Source of the DNA: Terriglobia bacterium
GTDB lineage: Bacteria > Acidobacteriota > Terriglobia > Bryobacterales > Bryobacteraceae
Length of the DNA: 64,000 nt
Direction: 5' to 3'
Assembly (NCBI GenBank): GCA_021325235.1
Contig: JAJPHN010000049.1
Coordinates: 1 to 64,000 of the forward strand
The notes below the pieces were generated by a model, which did not search any database, was not told where the DNA came from, and worked only from the letters and a program-made list of their open reading frames with translations. This document shows, one piece after another, positions 443 through 17,160 of the stretch (positions are counted from its first letter, which is position 1; each line of letters opens with the position of its first letter). The position numbers and the translations under genes were made by a program.

Positions 443-1921
443 ATGTCGCTGCAGGTTTTTTTGCAAGCTCGATTGCTCGGCGCCGAAGATTTCCTCTCCG
501 GACAGACCGAGCAAACCGAAACTGTCGGCGATCTGATCGGACGCGGTGCGTGGCTCACCTTATTCGGCGAAGTTCTCCCGCGCGCTTTACTCGCTGAATT
601 GAAGCTTTCGCGCATGCTTCTCGGCTCGAGCAGCGCCGAACAATTTCTGCTGGTGCTGGCCGAAGAAGACATTCCGCGCGCCAACGATTTCCTCAATAAC
701 GCCGGCAGCAAAATCGCAGAGCTTTCTTCGGGCAAGCTCCAACTCGTGTGGGCGAGCACCGAAAATTTAGGTGCGTGGCCAGTGGTGCGCAAGCGCCTGG
801 AGGATGCGTTGGCCGCTCGCGTGTGCTGTCCCATAAGTCAAAGCAGCGCCGGGGAACGGTTCGAGCCTTTTCGAGTGCAAGCCAGCGAAGGGAATGGAGC
901 CGTCTTCGCAAATTTCGCGCAAGTCATCATTTCCGCCCAGACAATCGGCTGGTCGCCGGACGAACCACTGCTCCTCGCCTGGGACACCGGCCGGCACCAA
1001 TGGCGTTTAACAGAGCATGCCGCGCCGGACGAAGACAGTATTCTCTTCCCGCGTCGTTTCGCCATGAATGAGGAAGGCGGCGAACCGGCCAGCCTGCACG
1101 AGCTCGCCGAACGAGCCGAAGGCGCGGACCGCTGGGGTATTCTGCGCGGCGATGTGGATCATTTCGAAATTCAGCTGCGCCGTGCCGCTTCAATCGAAGA
1201 CCACCTGCAGCTCTCGGCGCTTTTTAAACAATTTTTCGCGGGCGAGCTGGCCGTACTCTGCGCGCTCCCCGAGTTCTGGCGCAAGGTGAGCGTAATCTAT
1301 CGCGGGGGTGACGATTTCGTCGTACTCGGCAGCTGGGACGCGCTGATTCTTTTTGCACGTGAATTGCAGCGCCTCTTTGAAAAATTCGCTGAGCAGCATC
1401 TGGCGAACCTTCCGGGCGTGGAGGCCAAGACCATCAGCATGGCGCTGGTGCTTGCGCCTGCGCTCGAGTCTTCTGCCGCGGCAGTGGCCGCCGAGGCATC
1501 CATCGAGCTACGCGCCAGCAAATCCAGTGAACTCGGCTCCATTCATCTCTTCGGACGCACCCTCGAGTGGAAGCGCCTCAACGATGCCGAGGAATTAAAA
1601 GCCGGACTGGTGCGGCTCGTCCGCGAATTTCGCTATCCACCCGGTTACTTAAACGATCTGGCTGCCGTCTATCGGGAAAGTAAAATCGTGCGGGAAACGA
1701 TCGCCGGCAGCTTGCGTCGGGGCAAAGCGCAGCGCATCGACAAGCCCTGGCGGACGTACCTGCGATTGAGCCGCGTCATCCCGCCTCCCCGCGGCAAGGA
1801 ACAAACCAGCGTGCGCAACGCCGTGATCACAAACCTGATCGGAAAGCGCGGCGCTGGTCTGAAATTGAGGCCCTCCGGACGCGTCGGACTCGAATGGGCG
1901 CGACTCGAGGCAAGCGCGTAA
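443..1921 (+). CDS. csm1: Csm1/Cas10, type III-A large subunit without HD nuclease domain
   Basis: Large subunit of the Csm RNA-targeting complex, 492 residues. Residues 1-115 look like the first, degenerate palm domain (RLLGAEDFLSG and QFLLVLAEED strands). The second palm keeps the metal-binding LRGDVDHF (D237, D239) and the cyclase motif YRGGDDFVVLG (GGDD at 288-291). About 200 residues follow as the C-terminal domain. These residues predict cyclic oligoadenylate synthesis from ATP on target RNA binding. Typical Csm1 proteins are about 750-850 residues and start with an HD DNase domain. That domain is missing here, and the upstream sequence is taken up by the antitoxin remnant. The zinc-ribbon cysteines between the palms are also not recognisable (only a CC pair near 130). 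The first ATG in the open frame is at 443. Confidence 0.88.
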   Translation: MSLQVFLQARLLGAEDFLSGQTEQTETVGDLIGRGAWLTLFGEVLPRALLAELKLSRMLLGSSSAEQFLLVLAEEDIPRANDFLNNAGSKIAELSSGKLQLVWASTENLGAWPVVRKRLEDALAARVCCPISQSSAGERFEPFRVQASEGNGAVFANFAQVIISAQTIGWSPDEPLLLAWDTGRHQWRLTEHAAPDEDSILFPRRFAMNEEGGEPASLHELAERAEGADRWGILRGDVDHFEIQLRRAASIEDHLQLSALFKQFFAGELAVLCALPEFWRKVSVIYRGGDDFVVLGSWDALILFARELQRLFEKFAEQHLANLPGVEAKTISMALVLAPALESSAAAVAAEASIELRASKSSELGSIHLFGRTLEWKRLNDAEELKAGLVRLVREFRYPPGYLNDLAAVYRESKIVRETIAGSLRRGKAQRIDKPWRTYLRLSRVIPPPRGKEQTSVRNAVITNLIGKRGAGLKLRPSGRVGLEWARLEASA

Positions 1922-1961
1922 CCGTAACCGCCGGCCCGGGCACATACAGTAAGGACGATCA

Positions 1962-2504
1962 ATGGCTGAAGTAGAAGAGAAAAAGACAGAAGAGCGCCGC
2001 TCAAATGAGAATCGCCCTCCCCGTGAAAATCGCGGTGGCGGCGGTCCGCGTCCGAACGAACGTGGTGAAGGTCGCGGGGACCGTGGTGGTGGTGATCGTG
2101 GTCCGCGCGAAGGCCGCGGCGGTCCCGGTGGACGCCCCGGTGGCGATCGCCGTCCCGAAGGCCCGCCCGAGATCGACCTGGAAAAGCTGATCAGCGACAG
2201 TCTGTATCTCGACAATCAGGCGCACGTCGTCGTCAGCCGCATGCGCGACATGGATTCGGGCACCAAGAGCCAGCTGCGACGCCTCTATAACGCCGTCCGC
2301 CGCGCCACCCGGGCTCCGGAAAACGAGCGCCAGCATGAGTTCGTGATGGTCCGAGCGCGGCTCGCCTACACCATCGCGCGTCACTCCCTGCGCAGCCTCG
2401 ATGCGCTCGAGCGTCTGCTCCTGCAGGTCACGCGCAAAAACGACACCCGCGGCTACGAGCGCTTTCGCGATCTCTTCGAAGCCATCATTGCTTACAACGA
2501 ATAA
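1962..2504 (+). CDS. csm2: Csm2 small subunit with an Arg/Gly-rich N-terminal extension
   Basis: The last 111 residues (70-180) form a helical Csm2 core, IDLEKLISDSLYLDNQ to the C-terminus, with the Arg-rich helices that line the crRNA-target channel in type III-A complexes (MVRARLAYTIARHS). Residues 17-68 are almost only Gly, Arg, Pro, Asp, Glu and Asn, with repeated RGG/GRGG units, and are surely disordered. Ordinary Csm2 proteins are about 120-150 residues and lack such a tail. AAGGA sits nine bases before the ATG, so the long start is well supported. The gene lies 40 bases after csm1 and 14 before csm3. The RG-rich part may bind RNA or other subunits; that is inference. Confidence 0.85.
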   Translation: MAEVEEKKTEERRSNENRPPRENRGGGGPRPNERGEGRGDRGGGDRGPREGRGGPGGRPGGDRRPEGPPEIDLEKLISDSLYLDNQAHVVVSRMRDMDSGTKSQLRRLYNAVRRATRAPENERQHEFVMVRARLAYTIARHSLRSLDALERLLLQVTRKNDTRGYERFRDLFEAIIAYNE

Positions 2505-2518
2505 GGCCCATCACACGC

Positions 2519-3352
2519 ATGAGTTCCCATACCGCAGAAACCGAACTGACGTTCTTAGGAAAGCTGGTGCTCGAAGGCGAAATCACCTGCCAGACCGGGC
2601 TGCACATCGGCGCTGGTAAAGGCTCGCTTGAAATTGGGGGCGCCGACAATCCCGTGGTCAAAGACGCCTTCGGCATCCCGTACATCCCCGGCAGCTCTCT
2701 GCGCGGCCGTCTGCGCTCGCTGCTGGAACAAACCATGGGTCTGGCCGTTCCGAGCGAGCTGGTCTATCTTTCCAAGCGCCGCGGCCAGGAAGTGCGCATT
2801 CACCAGAGCGAACGTCCCGACGACGAGATCTGCATCCTGTTCGGCCGCAACTCTGGCCGTATGGAGCGCGTTGCGGGCGAAAGCACCGAATCCTCCGCCG
2901 CCACTCCCGCCCGCCTCACCGTCTACGATGCGCCGCTGGTGGTCGATAGCATCACCTCGCAGATGCGCGAAAATCTCGATGACGAGCTGACCGAAGTCAA
3001 GAGCGAAAATGCGGTCGATCGCATCACCTCGCAGGCCAATCCGCGCACGCTCGAGCGTGTTCCGGCGGGCGCCCGGTTCCGCTTCCGGCTCGTTCTCGAC
3101 GTGCTCTGCAATGAAGACAAGCCGCTGCTGGCGCGCGTAGCTGAAGGTCTCCGACTGCTTGAAGACGATGCGCTCGGCGGCGGTGGCAGCCGCGGCAATG
3201 GGCGCGTCTCTTTCGGCAATCTGAATCTGATCTGGCGCGGCAAGGACTATTACGCCAAAGGTGCGCCCGAAACGTCCCTGCTCTCAGGCTCAGACCTCGC
3301 ACAGTTCCAGCAGTTCGCCAGCTCGGACGACCTCGCGGAAAAGCTCGCCTGA
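2519..3352 (+). CDS. csm3: Csm3, Cas7-type backbone RNase subunit
   Basis: RAMP backbone protein that wraps the crRNA and cuts target RNA at 6-nt steps. The first half contains TGLHIGAG, then IGGADNPVVKD, where D43 matches the catalytic Asp of Csm3, and YIPGSSLRGRLRSLL, the conserved first-helix motif. A Gly-rich loop, LGGGGSRGNGR, follows near residues 222-234. At 277 residues it is somewhat longer than the roughly 215-240 usual for the family. Retention of the Asp predicts active target-RNA cleavage. Its stop codon is immediately followed by the csm4 start, so the two are probably translationally coupled. Confidence 0.92.
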   Translation: MSSHTAETELTFLGKLVLEGEITCQTGLHIGAGKGSLEIGGADNPVVKDAFGIPYIPGSSLRGRLRSLLEQTMGLAVPSELVYLSKRRGQEVRIHQSERPDDEICILFGRNSGRMERVAGESTESSAATPARLTVYDAPLVVDSITSQMRENLDDELTEVKSENAVDRITSQANPRTLERVPAGARFRFRLVLDVLCNEDKPLLARVAEGLRLLEDDALGGGGSRGNGRVSFGNLNLIWRGKDYYAKGAPETSLLSGSDLAQFQQFASSDDLAEKLA

Positions 3353-4657
3353 ATGCCGTCTGCCCTGTTGATCCGGCTTCGGCCACGCGGACCCTGGCGC
3401 TATGGCCCGGCTGACGGCGCGCACGACGGAGTCGACCAACTCTATCGCAGCGACCGACTGTTTTCCGCCGTAACGCTCGCCATGCAGAAGCTCGGCTATC
3501 TGGAAGAGTGGCTGGACTCGACTGCCCGCGCCTCGCAGTCCGGCATCGCGTTCAGTTCGTTTTTTCCGTTTCAGGGCGACACGCTGTTCGCCATCCCTCC
3601 TGCGAGCATCTGGCCGCCTCCCACGGCTCAGGTGACAGCTCCGAATCCCGTATTCCTGGCCAAGATTCGCTGGAAATCGGTCTCCTTTGTGCCGCTATCG
3701 GTTATAGACACGCTGCTCACCGGCGGCTCCATTCTGGCCGAACACTGGCTGCCCGATTCCGAGAGCAGTTGCTTGTTGCGGCGCGACCGTCCGAGCGCGC
3801 CCCCAATGCGCGTAGCCATCCGGCAGACGGTGCGGGTTGACCGGTTAACCCGCAAAGCACACGCGCCCGCGGCCGCGGCCGCTGTCGAATTCGAACCCAA
3901 TGCCGGACTGTGGACGCTGGCTCGTTTCAAAAACGAAGCCATTGAGGATACCTGGGGCGAACGGCTGAAAGGCGCTTTCCGGCTGCTGGCCGATTCCGGA
4001 TTTGGCGGGCGCCGGTCGAGCGGCTGGGGCCAATCGCACGAACCCGAGTTCAGCCGGGGCGAATGGCCTGGCTTCGTTTTTCCAAAACTGGCTCGCGCGA
4101 TCCGGAGTTCGAATGGCAGTTCGCGCTACTGGCTGCTTTCGCTCTTTGTTCCCGGCGCGCAGGATAGCGTCGACTGGCGCGCAGGAAATTACCAGCTCGT
4201 CACCCGGGCCGGACGAATCGAGAATGGCGCAGGCAGTGGCGCGGAAAAGAAATCACTCCGCATGATCGCGGAAGGCTCCGTGCTCGCAGCAGCAGGCGAG
4301 CCGGCAGGAGCAGCCGTGGATGTCGCTCCCGATCACTTCGCCCATCCGGTCTATCGCGCTGGGATCGCGCTAGCCCTCGAATTGCCCGAGATCGCTGAGG
4401 CTGCCCCGGTCGAGGAACCGCAAACCGAAGAAGCCGTGATCGAGCCCTGCGAACCCGGAATCGAAACCAGCGAGCGTGAGCGAGCGAATCCGGATCAAAC
4501 CGCCATCGTCGCCGACGAACCCGGAACTCCCTCCCAACCCGAAGAATTTGGGAACGGAGCCAGGGAGCCTGAGCAACCCGGCTCGGACCCCGAGCCGCCT
4601 GGCGCTACCGAAGAGCAACCGGCCACAACGCACGAAGAGGGTGACGATGCAATATAA
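3353..4657 (+). CDS. csm4: Csm4, Cas5-type crRNA 5'-tag subunit with long acidic tail
   Basis: Cas5-like RAMP that caps the 5' end of the crRNA and contacts Csm1. Family signs are the N-terminal strand SALLIRLRPRGPWRYG, the DQLYRSDRLFSAV segment near residue 30, and the Gly-rich loop DSGFGGRRSSGWGQ at about 215-227. The folded part ends near residue 345. Residues 346-434 are a low-complexity tail rich in Glu, Asp and Pro (repeats such as EEPQTEE, PEQPGSDPEPPG). Csm4 is normally about 300 residues, so the tail is an addition. The start abuts the csm3 stop, and the last 11 bases overlap csm5. Confidence 0.88.
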   Translation: MPSALLIRLRPRGPWRYGPADGAHDGVDQLYRSDRLFSAVTLAMQKLGYLEEWLDSTARASQSGIAFSSFFPFQGDTLFAIPPASIWPPPTAQVTAPNPVFLAKIRWKSVSFVPLSVIDTLLTGGSILAEHWLPDSESSCLLRRDRPSAPPMRVAIRQTVRVDRLTRKAHAPAAAAAVEFEPNAGLWTLARFKNEAIEDTWGERLKGAFRLLADSGFGGRRSSGWGQSHEPEFSRGEWPGFVFPKLARAIRSSNGSSRYWLLSLFVPGAQDSVDWRAGNYQLVTRAGRIENGAGSGAEKKSLRMIAEGSVLAAAGEPAGAAVDVAPDHFAHPVYRAGIALALELPEIAEAAPVEEPQTEEAVIEPCEPGIETSERERANPDQTAIVADEPGTPSQPEEFGNGAREPEQPGSDPEPPGATEEQPATTHEEGDDAI

Positions 4658-5786
4658 CGTAACCGCCCTCACACCCCTGCTCGTCGGCGATGGCCGCGAA
4701 CTCTCGCCAATCGACTACATGGTCTGGAAAGACCAGGTCAACGTGCTCGATCAGGCCCGCATTTTTCGCCTGCTCGCCCGAGGCCCGCGTCTCGAAGGCT
4801 ATCTGACCCAGCTCCGTAAAGCCAGCAAGCTCGATTTTGCTTCCTGGGGCGGGTTCGCTCAGAATTTTTCGCAGCGGCGCATCCCATTCGAATCAGCCGA
4901 TCTAACCGCAATCTGGAACGCCGCAGCCTCCGAGTCGCTGTTTATCCCGACGTTCGCAGCCGAAACGCGGGGCAATTATCTACCCGGGTCCGCGCTCAAG
5001 GGCGCCTTGCGAACCGGTCTGGTTTTCAGCCGGTGGTCCCCTGCTATCGTCGAAAAACTCGCCTCCTCGATAGAGGAACGGGTTCCGCGCCGCGCCGCCG
5101 AACCGGCCGAATCGAATGCCGGGGCTTCGCAGGTCAGGATTTTCGGGATTAGCGATAGCCGGAGCATACCGCCGACAGCGTTCAAGGTGTTCCTGACGCG
5201 GACCGCCTCGCTCGATACGCGCCAGCCCGGAAAACCGCAGCTGGCCTGGAAAGTAGCCGGGCGCGGCAGCGTGGCCGGATCGCGCGCCTCCGACTCCACA
5301 CCGATTTTTGCGGAAATGGCCGCTCCCGGAACCACCTTCTCCGGCGAATGGCTGGAACGATCCTTTCTCGAAAATCCGGAGCTGACGCGCGCGCTCGGCT
5401 GGCGATCGGTGCCTGATCTTGCCGGAATTTTCAATGCGGCCAACGAGTTTGCAGCCGCGCAACTCAAACTTCATGCGCAGTTCGCCGAGATGGCGGGCCT
5501 GGAACGCGTGCAATCCGCCCTTGCACGCCTGGAAGCGGAACTAGCAGCCGCGCGCGAAAAACCGCTCAGCTGTCTGATCGCGCTGGGCTGGGGTGCCGGC
5601 TTTCTTTCGAAAGCGGCCGTTCTCGACACGGATAACGCCGCTTACCGGAAAATTCTCAGGGCAGTACCAGCGATTGGCAGGAGCCTGCGCGACAACGTTC
5701 CCTTTCCGAAGACCCGCCATGTCGTATTTCAAGGCGGCCAACCGGCAACGCTGCCAGGTTGGGTACGCCTCGAACTACAGCACTGA
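4647..5786 (+). CDS. csm5: Csm5, Cas7-type subunit at the crRNA 3' side
   Basis: RAMP protein of the Csm complex, 379 residues, needed for crRNA maturation and for closing the 3' end of the backbone. It begins MQYNVTALTPLLVGDG, the usual Csm5 first strand, and has YLPGSALKGALRTGLVF near residues 110-127, the conserved Csm5/RAMP helix. A Gly-rich segment, ALGWGAGFLSKAAV, lies toward the C-terminus. The frame is open further upstream, but ATG 4647 with GAGG close before it gives the natural N-terminus and an 11-base overlap with csm4. It is the last csm gene; 125 bases follow before the next ORF. Confidence 0.88.
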   Translation: MQYNVTALTPLLVGDGRELSPIDYMVWKDQVNVLDQARIFRLLARGPRLEGYLTQLRKASKLDFASWGGFAQNFSQRRIPFESADLTAIWNAAASESLFIPTFAAETRGNYLPGSALKGALRTGLVFSRWSPAIVEKLASSIEERVPRRAAEPAESNAGASQVRIFGISDSRSIPPTAFKVFLTRTASLDTRQPGKPQLAWKVAGRGSVAGSRASDSTPIFAEMAAPGTTFSGEWLERSFLENPELTRALGWRSVPDLAGIFNAANEFAAAQLKLHAQFAEMAGLERVQSALARLEAELAAAREKPLSCLIALGWGAGFLSKAAVLDTDNAAYRKILRAVPAIGRSLRDNVPFPKTRHVVFQGGQPATLPGWVRLELQH

Positions 5787-13220: not shown

Positions 13221-13856
13221 TCACTCCGTTTTCGGAACGCCCGCGCTGACCGGCTGCGAACTGCGCGAATAGCCATGCTGCGCGGAACGTTTCGCGCCGA
13301 TCCGATGCGCCTCATCGCTCATCGGATGCACCCCGCTCGCATCGATCCAGCGGTTGTAGTAATTGAACAGCGCGCAGACGGTAATCGCGTAATAGATTGC
13401 CTCGTCGGTGTAGCCGAACCCGTGCAGCTCTTCGATATCGGCCGGACCGATCGTGACCGATTCGAAGTTGACTTTGCGCACAAACTGGAACAGCGCCTTC
13501 TCGGGATCTGATAGAGGCGAAGTCTCCGGATCCTGCAGCACGGCATCCACTAATTCGGCACTGCCGAGCAATTCCGCCGCGACCGCGGCGTGCGATTTCG
13601 TTCAAAACGGACAGTGGTTCAGATGAGACGTATAGGCTGCAATCAGCTCACGTATGCCGGGCGAGAGCGGCGCTTCTTCGCGCATGATCTCCTGCGTGAA
13701 GCGCTCCAGATGCTGCGTCGCCTTGATCTTGAACGAGAACATGTGCAGGATCTGCGGATATTCCTGCTGCCCGGCGCCTTTCATCATGTCGATCGCGCGC
13801 GAATAGTTGTCCTCTCCGCGATGCTGCTCGACATCTTTCAAGAACATTGGTTCCAT
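13221..13856 (-). CDS. AhpD-like selenoprotein with CxxU active site (in-frame UGA read as Sec)
   Basis: Read straight through the TGA at 13602-13604, the frame gives one 211-residue carboxymuconolactone-decarboxylase/AhpD-like protein. Active site: E70, C82-P-F-U85, H89. The spacings 12, 3 and 4 equal those of the AhpD catalytic set (E118, C130, C133, H137). Homology continues in the same frame on both sides of the UGA (AAYTSHLNHCPF, then TKSHAAVAAELLGSAELV), so there is no frameshift. A hairpin suited to be a SECIS lies directly downstream. AGAGG precedes the ATG. The expected role is thiol/selenol peroxidase or disulfide reductase activity. It lies 16 bases after the Oar-like receptor stop, so probably forms an operon with it. 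Alternative reading: a nonsense mutation in a CxxC gene. Confidence 0.85.
13575..13604 (-). promoter_or_regulatory. Bacterial SECIS-like hairpin following the UGA codon
   Basis: On the minus strand the UGA (13604-13602) is followed by 11 bases, then CGCCGC (13590-13585), loop GGUC (13584-13581) and GCGGCG (13580-13575). The stem is perfect and all G/C. The loop starts 17 nt after the UGA and begins with G, which fits the bacterial SECIS model (loop 16-37 nt from UGA, G in the first loop positions); the E. coli fdhF loop also contains GGUC. It should recruit SelB for selenocysteine insertion. Confidence 0.75.
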
Positions 13857-13872
13857 ATCTGACCTCTGTAGG

Positions 13873-16800
13873 TTAAAACAGCACCTTCAGCGCAAGCTGC
13901 AGCAGCCGCGGAGGCGCAGCGTTCAGGATCTGACCGAATTCGGGCGACTGCAGATCCGGTTCCGGCAAGCCGAAATTTGCATGATTCAGCAGATTGAACG
14001 ACTCCGCGCGAAACTGCAGCCGCGCCCGCTCGCTCACGCTGAAATTCTTGAATACGGAAAGATCCACCGTTTCGATACCGGGTCCGCGCACCACGTTGCG
14101 GCCTTCGTTTCCAAATTGTCCGGCCTGCGTTGTAGGATTGAGCTGCAAAAACGCTGTGCGGGAAACCCACTCATTCGGCGTATGCGGCCCGGCATTCGGA
14201 TCGCTGATCAGATCCGGCTTGCTCGAATAGAAACCGGTGATCTCGGGTGCGCTCCCCTGCAGAGAGACGTTGGCGCTGTCGTAAACCGTAAACGGCGTGC
14301 CGGTAGCGAGATTGACAATCGTGTTGAGCTGCCAGCCGTTCACGAACACGCTCGCGAGCCGAGGTGCGCCGGACCATCTCGGCAGCACATAGGTTCCGCT
14401 GAAGACAAATCGATGGGTCGCATCGAACAACGACGGTCCGTGCTCGGCGCGCAGATCGAAGGGGTTCTGCGCCAGATCGTTTTCGCCGGTGACCAGCGTT
14501 GGAGCCGAGCCGGCCAGGTTTAACGACGAAACATAATCCAGACTTTTCGACCACCAGTAGGATGCCAGGAAAGACATGTTCTGGGTCAGCTGCTTTGAAA
14601 ATGCCGCCTGAAACGCGTGGTAGGTCGAAGTGTTGTTGTCCGCAATGAGCCCGACGGAACCGAATGCGCACGAACCGCTCGCATTGCAATCGGCGTAAGG
14701 CCGGCGCTGCTCGGAATTGTCGGGCGTCGCACCCGGCGTGTATAGCGAGGGATTCGCTTCGATAAACCGCGGCAGGTGCGTGCCTTTATTTCCCACGTAG
14801 CGAAGATCCAGCAGATATCCGTTTCCCAGACTCCGCTGCACCGAGAAATTCCAGTTCTGCGAATAGGGCGGCTTCATGCCCGATTGCACTGTCAGGATGG
14901 TCGCGGGCCTGACGTATGTGCCGGTCACAAACGGCGGCGGCGCACCGTTGTAGGGGTCGGCGAAGTTGAATCCGGGACCCGCGAGTTGGTATGCCTCCGT
15001 CCAGGGGAGCGCGCTTACGGCGGCCTGCAACGGACCGCCCTGTCCGTTGGTAAAGCCGTCGTAGAAAATCCCGTACCCCGCGCGAATCGAAGTCTTGCCG
15101 TCGCCCTCTGGATCCCAAGCAAAACCGATGCGCGGCATCAGCTCATGCCAGTCGACCGGCGCGATTCCCGCCGGCACGCCACGATCTCCGGGGAACAGCA
15201 GACCCGCGGGTGCATCCGGCATTTTGGTCGACTGCATGCCGGGAGCCCACGCATTCAGCCGGTCGCGAATCTCCGTGTACGGCGTGTTCACTTCATAGCG
15301 CAATCCGTACGAAAGCGTGAGCCGCGAAGTGACGCGCCATTCATCCTGCGCATATCCGGCGACAATCCACTTGCGCAGTCCGCGGCTGAAATCGCCGCCA
15401 CCCTGAAAGAACTGCACGGACGCGCCGGTCAGAAAACTCGCAAACGAATCATTGATCGGAAATGGCGCAAACACGAAGAAGCCGTTCGTCGCAATACCGA
15501 GCAGCGCATTGATCTGCTGGCGATCGAGTTCCGCGCCGAACTTGAGGTTATGACGGCCGCGGGTGGCGGCCAGCGAGTAATAGCCTTCGTAGTCGTTCTG
15601 ATACGTTTTCTGCGGGCCAGTGATCGGATTGCCAACGCTGGCATATCCGCTCACGATCAGATACGGGACACCCAGGTTGCTGTCGAGGGTAGGTTGATAA
15701 CCGAATCCGAGACCGCTCGCCGGCGTGTGGTTCTGCGCTTCGCCATAAAACAATACGTTGCGGAAGAAGGCTGCGCGAATGGTCTGCACTGTGCGGGGCG
15801 AGAAGAGATGAACATCCGAAATCGTGGCGGAATGCGTACGAATTTCATCGGCCACCGGAAAGCCCGGCACGCCCGCGCCATTAATCGGCAGCGGATCGAA
15901 TGCATTCAGAGAGGATGTCGCATATCGCGCGAAGAGCTGGTCGTTGTTATGGAAATAATGATCGAGCCGGAAGCCGCCCTGATCGTAGTTGTTGCTCATC
16001 ATCTCGGTCGCCGAATAGAGCGAGGGCGAAACGTTTCCGAGTGGGTACAACTTTTCAGCTTTGAGCGCGATGGGGCTGATCATCGAGGCGGGAATGCGGT
16101 TGCCGGGAATAATGTGGTTCGGAAAGAACATCCCGCGGTAATCGATCAGTTGCTCCGGTTTCCCCGTACTCGGATCGATCAGGCCGGAGAAATCTCCCGT
16201 GCGCTCGACTGCTGTAGGCACGATCGCGGCCTGCGTCTCGCCTTGCGAGTTGCGCTGCCCTTCGTAATAAACGAAAAAGAAATCGCGCCCCCGTCGGAGC
16301 GGGCCTCCGAGCGTCGCTCCGAACTGGTTCTGGTGCAGCGGTTCCGTGTCTGCCGCGAAAAAGTTGCGCGCATCGAAGGCATTGTTGCGCAGGAAGTCGT
16401 AGACCGAGCCGTGAAACGCGTCGCCGCCCGATTTAGTGATGACGCTGGTGGTTGCACCGCTGGTTTGCCCATATTCGGCCGGCGCATTCGACGTCAAAAT
16501 GCGAAATTCGTTCACGGCGTCGGGTGGCGTGCGCAGCGCGAATCCGCCGTTCACGCTGTCCACGTTCGAAACGCCATCGAGCAGATAGTTGTTCGATTCA
16601 GGAGGCTGGCCATTGACGGCATAGGCCTGTCCGCTGCGCAAAATCCCGCCGGCTTGGAGCAAGCCTGCTGTTAGTGGCGCCACTCCGGGTTGCAAGAGCC
16701 CGAGCTGTGTCAGATTGCGGCCGTTCAAAGGGAGGTCGGTGGCGTTGCGGGAGGAGACAACATCGCCGAGAGCCGAGCTCACATCGGCTGTGCCTTGCAC

Positions 16801-17160
16801 CTCGATAGCAACAGTATCCGCCCCTGCAACAGGAAGCGTCACGGGCAAGCTCACCGTCCGATCCACATCGATGCGAACATTGGTCAGATCCACTGGCGCG
16901 AAGCGATCCAGACGTACGCTCACGGCGTAATCGCCTACCGGAAGCGACGAAAAATAGAAGCTCCCGTCCGCCGTCGTAAGCTGGGTCAAGGCGCGCTGAG
17001 TCAACTGGTTCGTGGCGGTGACCTGAGCACCGCGCAGGCTTCCGCCGGTCTGATCGGTGACGCGCCCCTGCAGCTTGCCGGTGGGATCCTGCGCGAACAC
17101 AACCGATGCTGCGAGACCTGCAAACAAACACACTTGCGACAACTTGTGAACACTTCCCAT
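13873..17160 (-). CDS. Oar-like TonB-dependent receptor with carboxypeptidase-regulatory domain
   Basis: 1095-residue outer-membrane receptor of the type abundant in Acidobacteriota. A signal peptide (LFAGLAASVVFAQ) is followed by a carboxypeptidase-regulatory-like beta-sandwich (GKLQGRVTDQTGGSLRGA, residues 28-110). A plug domain with LPLNGRNLTQLGLLQPGV and NNYLLDGVSNVDSVNGG comes next, then a large beta barrel ending in the aromatic LQLALKVLF. The substrate is not predictable; peptides, oligosaccharides or oligomers are usual guesses. It is the first gene of an operon with the AhpD-like selenoprotein. It is divergent, with only 42 bases between annotated starts, from the sensor-kinase/GH3 operon, which suggests shared control. 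Confidence 0.92.
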   Translation of the reverse strand: MGSVHKLSQVCLFAGLAASVVFAQDPTGKLQGRVTDQTGGSLRGAQVTATNQLTQRALTQLTTADGSFYFSSLPVGDYAVSVRLDRFAPVDLTNVRIDVDRTVSLPVTLPVAGADTVAIEVQGTADVSSALGDVVSSRNATDLPLNGRNLTQLGLLQPGVAPLTAGLLQAGGILRSGQAYAVNGQPPESNNYLLDGVSNVDSVNGGFALRTPPDAVNEFRILTSNAPAEYGQTSGATTSVITKSGGDAFHGSVYDFLRNNAFDARNFFAADTEPLHQNQFGATLGGPLRRGRDFFFVYYEGQRNSQGETQAAIVPTAVERTGDFSGLIDPSTGKPEQLIDYRGMFFPNHIIPGNRIPASMISPIALKAEKLYPLGNVSPSLYSATEMMSNNYDQGGFRLDHYFHNNDQLFARYATSSLNAFDPLPINGAGVPGFPVADEIRTHSATISDVHLFSPRTVQTIRAAFFRNVLFYGEAQNHTPASGLGFGYQPTLDSNLGVPYLIVSGYASVGNPITGPQKTYQNDYEGYYSLAATRGRHNLKFGAELDRQQINALLGIATNGFFVFAPFPINDSFASFLTGASVQFFQGGGDFSRGLRKWIVAGYAQDEWRVTSRLTLSYGLRYEVNTPYTEIRDRLNAWAPGMQSTKMPDAPAGLLFPGDRGVPAGIAPVDWHELMPRIGFAWDPEGDGKTSIRAGYGIFYDGFTNGQGGPLQAAVSALPWTEAYQLAGPGFNFADPYNGAPPPFVTGTYVRPATILTVQSGMKPPYSQNWNFSVQRSLGNGYLLDLRYVGNKGTHLPRFIEANPSLYTPGATPDNSEQRRPYADCNASGSCAFGSVGLIADNNTSTYHAFQAAFSKQLTQNMSFLASYWWSKSLDYVSSLNLAGSAPTLVTGENDLAQNPFDLRAEHGPSLFDATHRFVFSGTYVLPRWSGAPRLASVFVNGWQLNTIVNLATGTPFTVYDSANVSLQGSAPEITGFYSSKPDLISDPNAGPHTPNEWVSRTAFLQLNPTTQAGQFGNEGRNVVRGPGIETVDLSVFKNFSVSERARLQFRAESFNLLNHANFGLPEPDLQSPEFGQILNAAPPRLLQLALKVLF

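Follow-up and report, generated by a model that had tools for sequence, protein, structure and literature searches.

AhpD-like proteins of COG2128 were listed among selenoproteins in 2006 (in a section of PMC1794560), and a type named 'AhpD-like 1', with a CxxU motif and 299 sequences, followed in 2008 (in a section of PMC2398784). Passages of two further papers also describe CxxU AhpD-like (COG2128/TIGR01926) selenoproteins (PMC9312934, PMC13188914). A search of openly licensed full texts for AhpD selenoproteins in Acidobacteria returned only PMC1794560, and one for TIGR01926 as a selenoprotein only PMC13188914. The same texts, searched for Acidobacteriota together with selenoprotein, selenocysteine or UGA, returned only PMC12013277, a passage of which describes one acidobacterium with three selenoprotein genes. 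For M. tuberculosis AhpD, part of PMC3141380 gives a relay of E118, C130, H132, C133 and H137, and a passage of PMC6626918 reports that the second cysteine, Cys133, and not Cys130, is joined to AhpC. The same passage reports that in Burkholderia the first cysteine matters more. A D. radiodurans mutant lacking AhpD was reported to be sensitive to H2O2, and both cysteines of that protein matter (excerpt of PMC8945050).

The locus analysed here lies in a window of 64,000 nt (the whole stretch of DNA examined; G000:C60:1-64000), which belongs to a binned genome of 5.03 Mb in 60 contigs, 95.7% complete and with 4.77% contamination. Minus-strand positions 13856-13221 form a single frame whose sole internal stop is the TGA at codon 85. 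The frame holds two open reading frames, 13602-13856 (84 codons and the TGA) and 13221-13571 (116 amino acids from a TTG). The initial annotation had claimed that these halves share one frame and are split by one TGA only, and translation bore this out. When the TGA is read as a residue, the product is a 211-residue protein that ends at a terminal TGA (13223-13221). Two family models match across the UGA, so the frame is not a chance one: TIGR01926 ('peroxidase-related enzyme') at 103.7 bits against a cut-off of 81.8 (residues 34-178), and PF02627 at 33.8 bits against 23 (residues 48-108). The residues E70, C82, U85 and H89 also have the exact 12-3-4 spacing that had been proposed, and E70, C82, F84, residue 85 and H89 all stand in columns that are invariant or nearly so. 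This is the spacing of E118-C130-C133-H137 in M. tuberculosis AhpD as given in the cited part of PMC3141380; the place of His132 is taken by Phe84, and the five-residue relay is not complete in the window protein. Our best reading, to which we assign a probability of about 0.93, is that the two apparent fragments belong to a single intact gene encoding an AhpD-like protein with selenocysteine. The features of the locus are collected in Table 1.

Table 1. Positions of the features described at the AhpD-like locus
Feature	Position	Strand	Basis
Coding frame, 211 residues, predicted AhpD-like (TIGR01926) selenoprotein	13224..13856	-	translation and family models
In-frame UGA, codon 85, predicted selenocysteine, second position of C82-P-F-U85	13602..13604	-	
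E70 codon, relay glutamate; kept in 110/110 homologues read	13647..13649	-	
AGAGG, likely ribosome site, 6 nt 5' of the ATG	13863..13867	-	sequence only
SECIS-like hairpin, stem GCCGC/GCGGC with an outer C-G pair, loop GGUC (13584-13581)	13575..13590	-	
Outer-membrane beta-barrel protein (PF25183) with CarboxypepD_reg domain	13873..17160	-	

The window protein has the same family model and the same CxxU motif as the marine and other bacterial COG2128/TIGR01926 selenoproteins described in the passages cited above; its clade, which is mostly CPFU, is set beside them by family model and motif only. Because such selenoproteins have been published from 2006-2008 onward, we file the type as known: the window gene is a further member of the CxxU AhpD-like selenoprotein type already in print, in line with the precedent that had been claimed for it. 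Two (seleno)protein models with a related AhpD-like domain lie far off, and the protein is a member of neither NF041238 (AhpD_rel_CFYUT; 34.7 bits against a cut-off of 175) nor NF053654 (YciW-related; 20.5 against 310). An NCBIfam profile search with the read-through protein gave no selenoprotein model among the matches over cut-off, so the UGA is where such genes will probably be truncated. Gene-finding programs can easily break selenoprotein genes of this kind in two.

We found that the UGA is conserved. In 60 relatives, the 26 best loci (L017-L042) carry UGA at codon 85 in 25 cases and Cys in one (L042); matches there that were weaker or cut short, among them pieces of the 3' part only in G004 and G008, do not enter the count. 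A survey of 399 genomes of the class gave 96 matches at E <= 1e-30 in 89 genomes, the window gene and a second copy in its own genome included. Codon 85 is UGA in 77 of these places, Cys in 18 and Ser in one, a count that omits matches weaker than E 1e-30, and no other stop precedes residue 196 in any of the 96. The gene thus has an in-frame UGA where homologues carry Cys, the pattern looked for in bacterial selenoproteins. Fourteen further close homologues outside the 96 all have UGA, and C82 and H89, like E70, are kept in all 110 (the 96 survey places, with the window gene, and these 14). Of 297 genomes drawn from the phylum, 10 gave a match at E <= 1e-40. Its nine places outside the window's own genome (7 UGA, 2 Cys), in which G073 and G176 repeat class genomes, were kept apart from the 96, as was a plasmid homologue. 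No close match turned up in three genomes of the same genus (G005, G015 and G016). A quick tree requires 4 changes between U and Cys, at least three of them forced by well-supported branches, against a mean of 17.8 after shuffling. Such Sec/Cys switches inside one family are natural pairs for asking what Sec buys. With UGA genes in 72 of the 399 class genomes sampled, these sequences form a well-supported predicted selenoprotein clade in Acidobacteriota.

Two observations lie outside this count. The plasmid homologue, on Gemmatirosa kalamazoonensis plasmid 2 (L154, NZ_CP007130.1 453634-457269), has UGA, 57.5% identity and the same hairpin core. Other genomes of the order hold an AhpD-like group that is more remote (L045, L046), with CHYU at this position.

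By the Nei-Gojobori method, the window gene set against each of 12 close homologues gave dN/dS values of 0.034-0.111 upstream of the UGA and of 0.056-0.177 over residues 96-203; these are rough because dS exceeds 1 throughout, and 9 of the 12 comparisons were finite on each side, the rest being saturated. The ratios plainly point to purifying selection on both sides of the UGA, with a constrained downstream half. The gene, which had been described as otherwise intact and full length, agrees with that description in its 211 residues, its TIGR01926 match and this constraint, and a likely ribosome site precedes its ATG as proposed (Table 1). A search of relatives for a lone UGA or a degraded downstream half, which would have spoken against a selenoprotein, instead found the UGA conserved and the downstream half intact. 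Both halves are open frames, and termination competes with Sec insertion in general; the UGA might then be a true stop, the product being either an N-terminal protein of 84 residues or a C-terminal one with its own start at the TTG at 13571. We rejected this reading as very improbable, because the UGA falls within the active-site helix, which is conserved and spans residues 83-97 of the predicted model, between the C82 and H89 kept in all 110 homologues read, and because both halves are constrained. Codon 96, the TTG, comes late in the same helix.

Next to the UGA of the predicted selenoprotein gene we found a SECIS-like hairpin, 14 nt 3' of the UGA and with a UGA-to-loop gap of 17 nt. The legend to Fig. 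2 of PMC13188914 sets the limits of a bSECIS at a stem of 4-16 bp, a loop of 3-9 nt, a UGA-to-loop distance of 16-37 nt and an MFE <= -7.5, with a G in the first two loop positions; in the model described in that part of the paper, loop bases N1 and N2 pair. GCCGC(GGUC)GCGGC lies within these limits, and a 54-nt fold has an energy of -20.2 kcal/mol; for a 27-nt piece, the mean over 91 UGA genes was -12.1. The five-pair stem is present in 85 of the 91 UGA genes, the other 6 lacking the full stem, and in none of 19 Cys/Ser genes. Since synonymous recoding showed that codon usage alone, in this GC-rich Ala-Val run, gives the stem a mean probability of 0.41, we did not take its presence as proof and relied on covariation. 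Against the same recoding, the mean energy z was -1.16 in UGA genes and +0.63 in Cys/Ser genes. Third-base entropy was 0.35-0.98 at residues 90-94, compared with 0.96-1.83 at the other positions listed.

The third bases of A91 and V92 stand on either side of the two bases at the tip of the loop. Of the 91 UGA genes, 61 have GCG-GTC at these two codons, 16 have GCA-GTT and 14 have other codons. The mixed forms GCG-GTT and GCA-GTC occur in none of the 91, and mixed combinations such as these do occur in Cys/Ser genes. For A90 and A93 the codons are GCC-GCG in 79, GCT-GCA in 6, GCT-GCG in 1 and others in 5 (n=91). By mutual information, A91/V92 ranked first of 188 adjacent codon pairs and A90/A93 first of 185 pairs at distance three; the ranking is made within the same genes, so relatedness is the same for all pairs compared. 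On the tree, the loop pair gave 13 independent contrasts, 6 of them on well-supported branches. In 200 pairings of these 6 contrasts, the partner base changed the same way in a mean of 5.9 and never the opposite way (median sign-test p 0.031). The A90/A93 pair had 4 independent pairs on starred branches, too few for a test. These silent-base switches are evolutionary support for the N1-N2 pair proposed across the SECIS loop. An Rfam scan of the 64,000-nt window at gathering thresholds returned nothing.

These findings also bear on whether the gene is a pseudogene or a misread gene: an ordinary Cys AhpD-like gene in which TGC or TGT became TGA in the assembly, through a nonsense mutation or a sequencing error. 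Cys codons are one base from TGA, and the window comes from a binned assembly. The conservation of the UGA contradicts this explanation, which we rejected as highly unlikely: the codon recurs in 77 of the 96 places surveyed in the class, none of which has a further stop ahead of residue 196, and all 7 named contigs identified separately carry the same UGA. The low dN/dS downstream of the UGA and the absence of the hairpin stem from all 19 Cys/Ser genes also argue against it.

A selenoprotein calls for Sec-decoding genes, and the initial annotation had proposed a search for selA, selB, selC and selD. All four are present. The tRNA-Sec gene (selC) is at C46:34269-34359 (73.1 bits, UCA anticodon), and searches of the genome contigs placed selB on C22 (377 bits), selA on C42 (502 bits) and selD on C8 (362 bits). 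Furthermore, a formate dehydrogenase alpha-like gene at C42:47837-48580 (L157; 158.5 bits, short of the 666 set as family cut-off) has one in-frame TGA and reads through as ...NQARIUHSSTVPSLG..., its UGA presumably being the family's usual Sec site. UGA decoding in the genome thus has a second gene behind it besides the AhpD-like one. None of the sel genes is on the contig of the window, and with the contamination of the bin they could in principle come from a stranger; relatives show the same association of UGA and Sec decoding. A changed code or ordinary suppression that puts some other amino acid at codon 85 is most improbable and was rejected: UGA readthrough can occur, but we found no other support, UGA is also the terminal stop of the AhpD-like gene and the first stop past residue 85 in many homologues, the codon is Cys in 18 of the 19 non-UGA survey homologues, and the genome has a tRNA-Sec. 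The selenoprotein reading of the gene is strongly supported by the sel genes, the conserved UGA and the covarying hairpin.

The selD region is present in two diverged copies in this one binned genome (L014/L015, 70.6% nucleotide identity over 3 kb), and the selB region likewise (L009/L010, 73.5% over 2.3 kb). Maybe these paired copies reflect two related organisms in the bin.

Across the 399-genome survey, UGA genes occur in 72 genomes, Cys/Ser genes in 19 and both in 2. Under strict filters, 64 of the 72 UGA genomes have a tRNA-Sec. In 7 of the 8 that do not, selA was matched at E <= 1e-30; the selA match of G237 consists of two pieces only and is below the family cut-off. One of the 72, G199 (77% complete), has neither a tRNA-Sec over cut-off nor a selA match. 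The 17 Cys/Ser-only genomes include 7 with and 10 without a strict tRNA-Sec, and 9 of these 10 also have no selA match. Counted by place, tRNA-Sec was present or absent in 69 and 8 UGA cases versus 9 and 10 Cys/Ser cases (Fisher p 1.6e-4, with related genomes not independent). Lax filters gave a 41-50-bit signal in 16 of the 18 genomes without a strict match, 6 of them over the 47-bit cut-off: three with UGA (G222, G408 and G422) and three Cys/Ser-only genomes that were just over and had no selA match (G138, G277 and G322). In 14 control genomes, lax filters gave a signal in 11 (5 over cut-off) and strict filters in 3. Because 11 of 14 controls responded at the lax setting, we take most lax matches to be ordinary tRNAs; the 50.1-bit match in G222, at a contig end, may be a cut tRNA-Sec. 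The association with selA is unaffected by the choice of tRNA-Sec filter.

The predicted structure of the read-through protein (pLDDT 90.6) has the all-helical AhpD-like fold. Its best structural match is D. radiodurans AhpD (DR_1765, 6k40; Z 21.1, rmsd 3.1, 183 residues), followed by the 'peroxidase-related' or antioxidant structures 2prr, 2oyo, 3c1l and 2pfx (Z 19.8-20.7). The whole fold is common to this set over 183-185 residues, at 20-27% identity, and the D. radiodurans CxxC has Cys where the window protein has Sec. M. tuberculosis AhpD (1gu9) is a weaker match (Z 10.5, 136 residues).

From known biology, SelB with Sec-tRNA-Sec would bind the hairpin and decode the UGA as Sec. The U85 selenolate, amid C82, E70 and H89, would then attack either a peroxide or a partner's oxidised thiol, an Se-S bond between U85 and C82 would form next, and a dithiol reductant would reopen it. 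We lean towards such an all-helical thiol/selenol oxidoreductase. The enzyme might be a selenol peroxidase or a thiol-disulfide reductase with an Se-S intermediate, the peroxidase activity being suggested by the family only. The initial annotation had placed U85 at the 'resolving' position, a label that is not supported: as the second Cys of M. tuberculosis AhpD is the one reported to join AhpC (passage of PMC6626918), Sec would occupy the likely attacking position.

The adjoining outer-membrane protein gene, whose product we take to be 'TonB-dependent/Oar-like', ends 16 nt before the start of the AhpD-like gene, and with so short a gap the two are probably co-transcribed. The pair is kept in 4 of the 11 other same-genus genomes with flanks read (tblastn E 1e-8; contig names were tied to genomes by identical read-out sequence): it is present in G001, G003, G009 and G013 and absent from G002, G006, G007, G010, G011, G012 and G014. 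In the flanks read, we found no neighbour common to the whole family; the other neighbours tested were ADH, peptidase M24, a xylose-isomerase-like barrel and an aminotransferase, or gave no match. In part of the genus the AhpD-like gene forms an apparent two-gene unit with one conserved outer-membrane receptor, and a compound imported by this receptor could be its substrate. Such a role, in which the CPFU clade of Acidobacteriota would be selenol reductases for a dedicated substrate rather than general peroxidases, we consider unlikely. The debrominase Bmp8 (6ohi), an AhpD-fold enzyme of similarly narrow role, matches the predicted structure of the window protein at Z 15.8.

Another UGA copy lies in the window's own genome, at C37:133254-133850, with 65% identity. 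There, over C37:133254-135066 (L074:3255-5043), the UGA AhpD-like gene stands beside two Cys TIGR01926 genes in a tandem cluster of Sec and Cys forms, and a methionine-synthase-like gene also adjoins it. Elsewhere in the window, positions 443-5786 of the plus strand carry Type III-A CRISPR effector genes in the order cas10, csm2, csm3, csm4 and csm5. The cas10 product has 492 amino acids with a Pfam match to the second palm domain only, and the csm4 and csm5 frames overlap.
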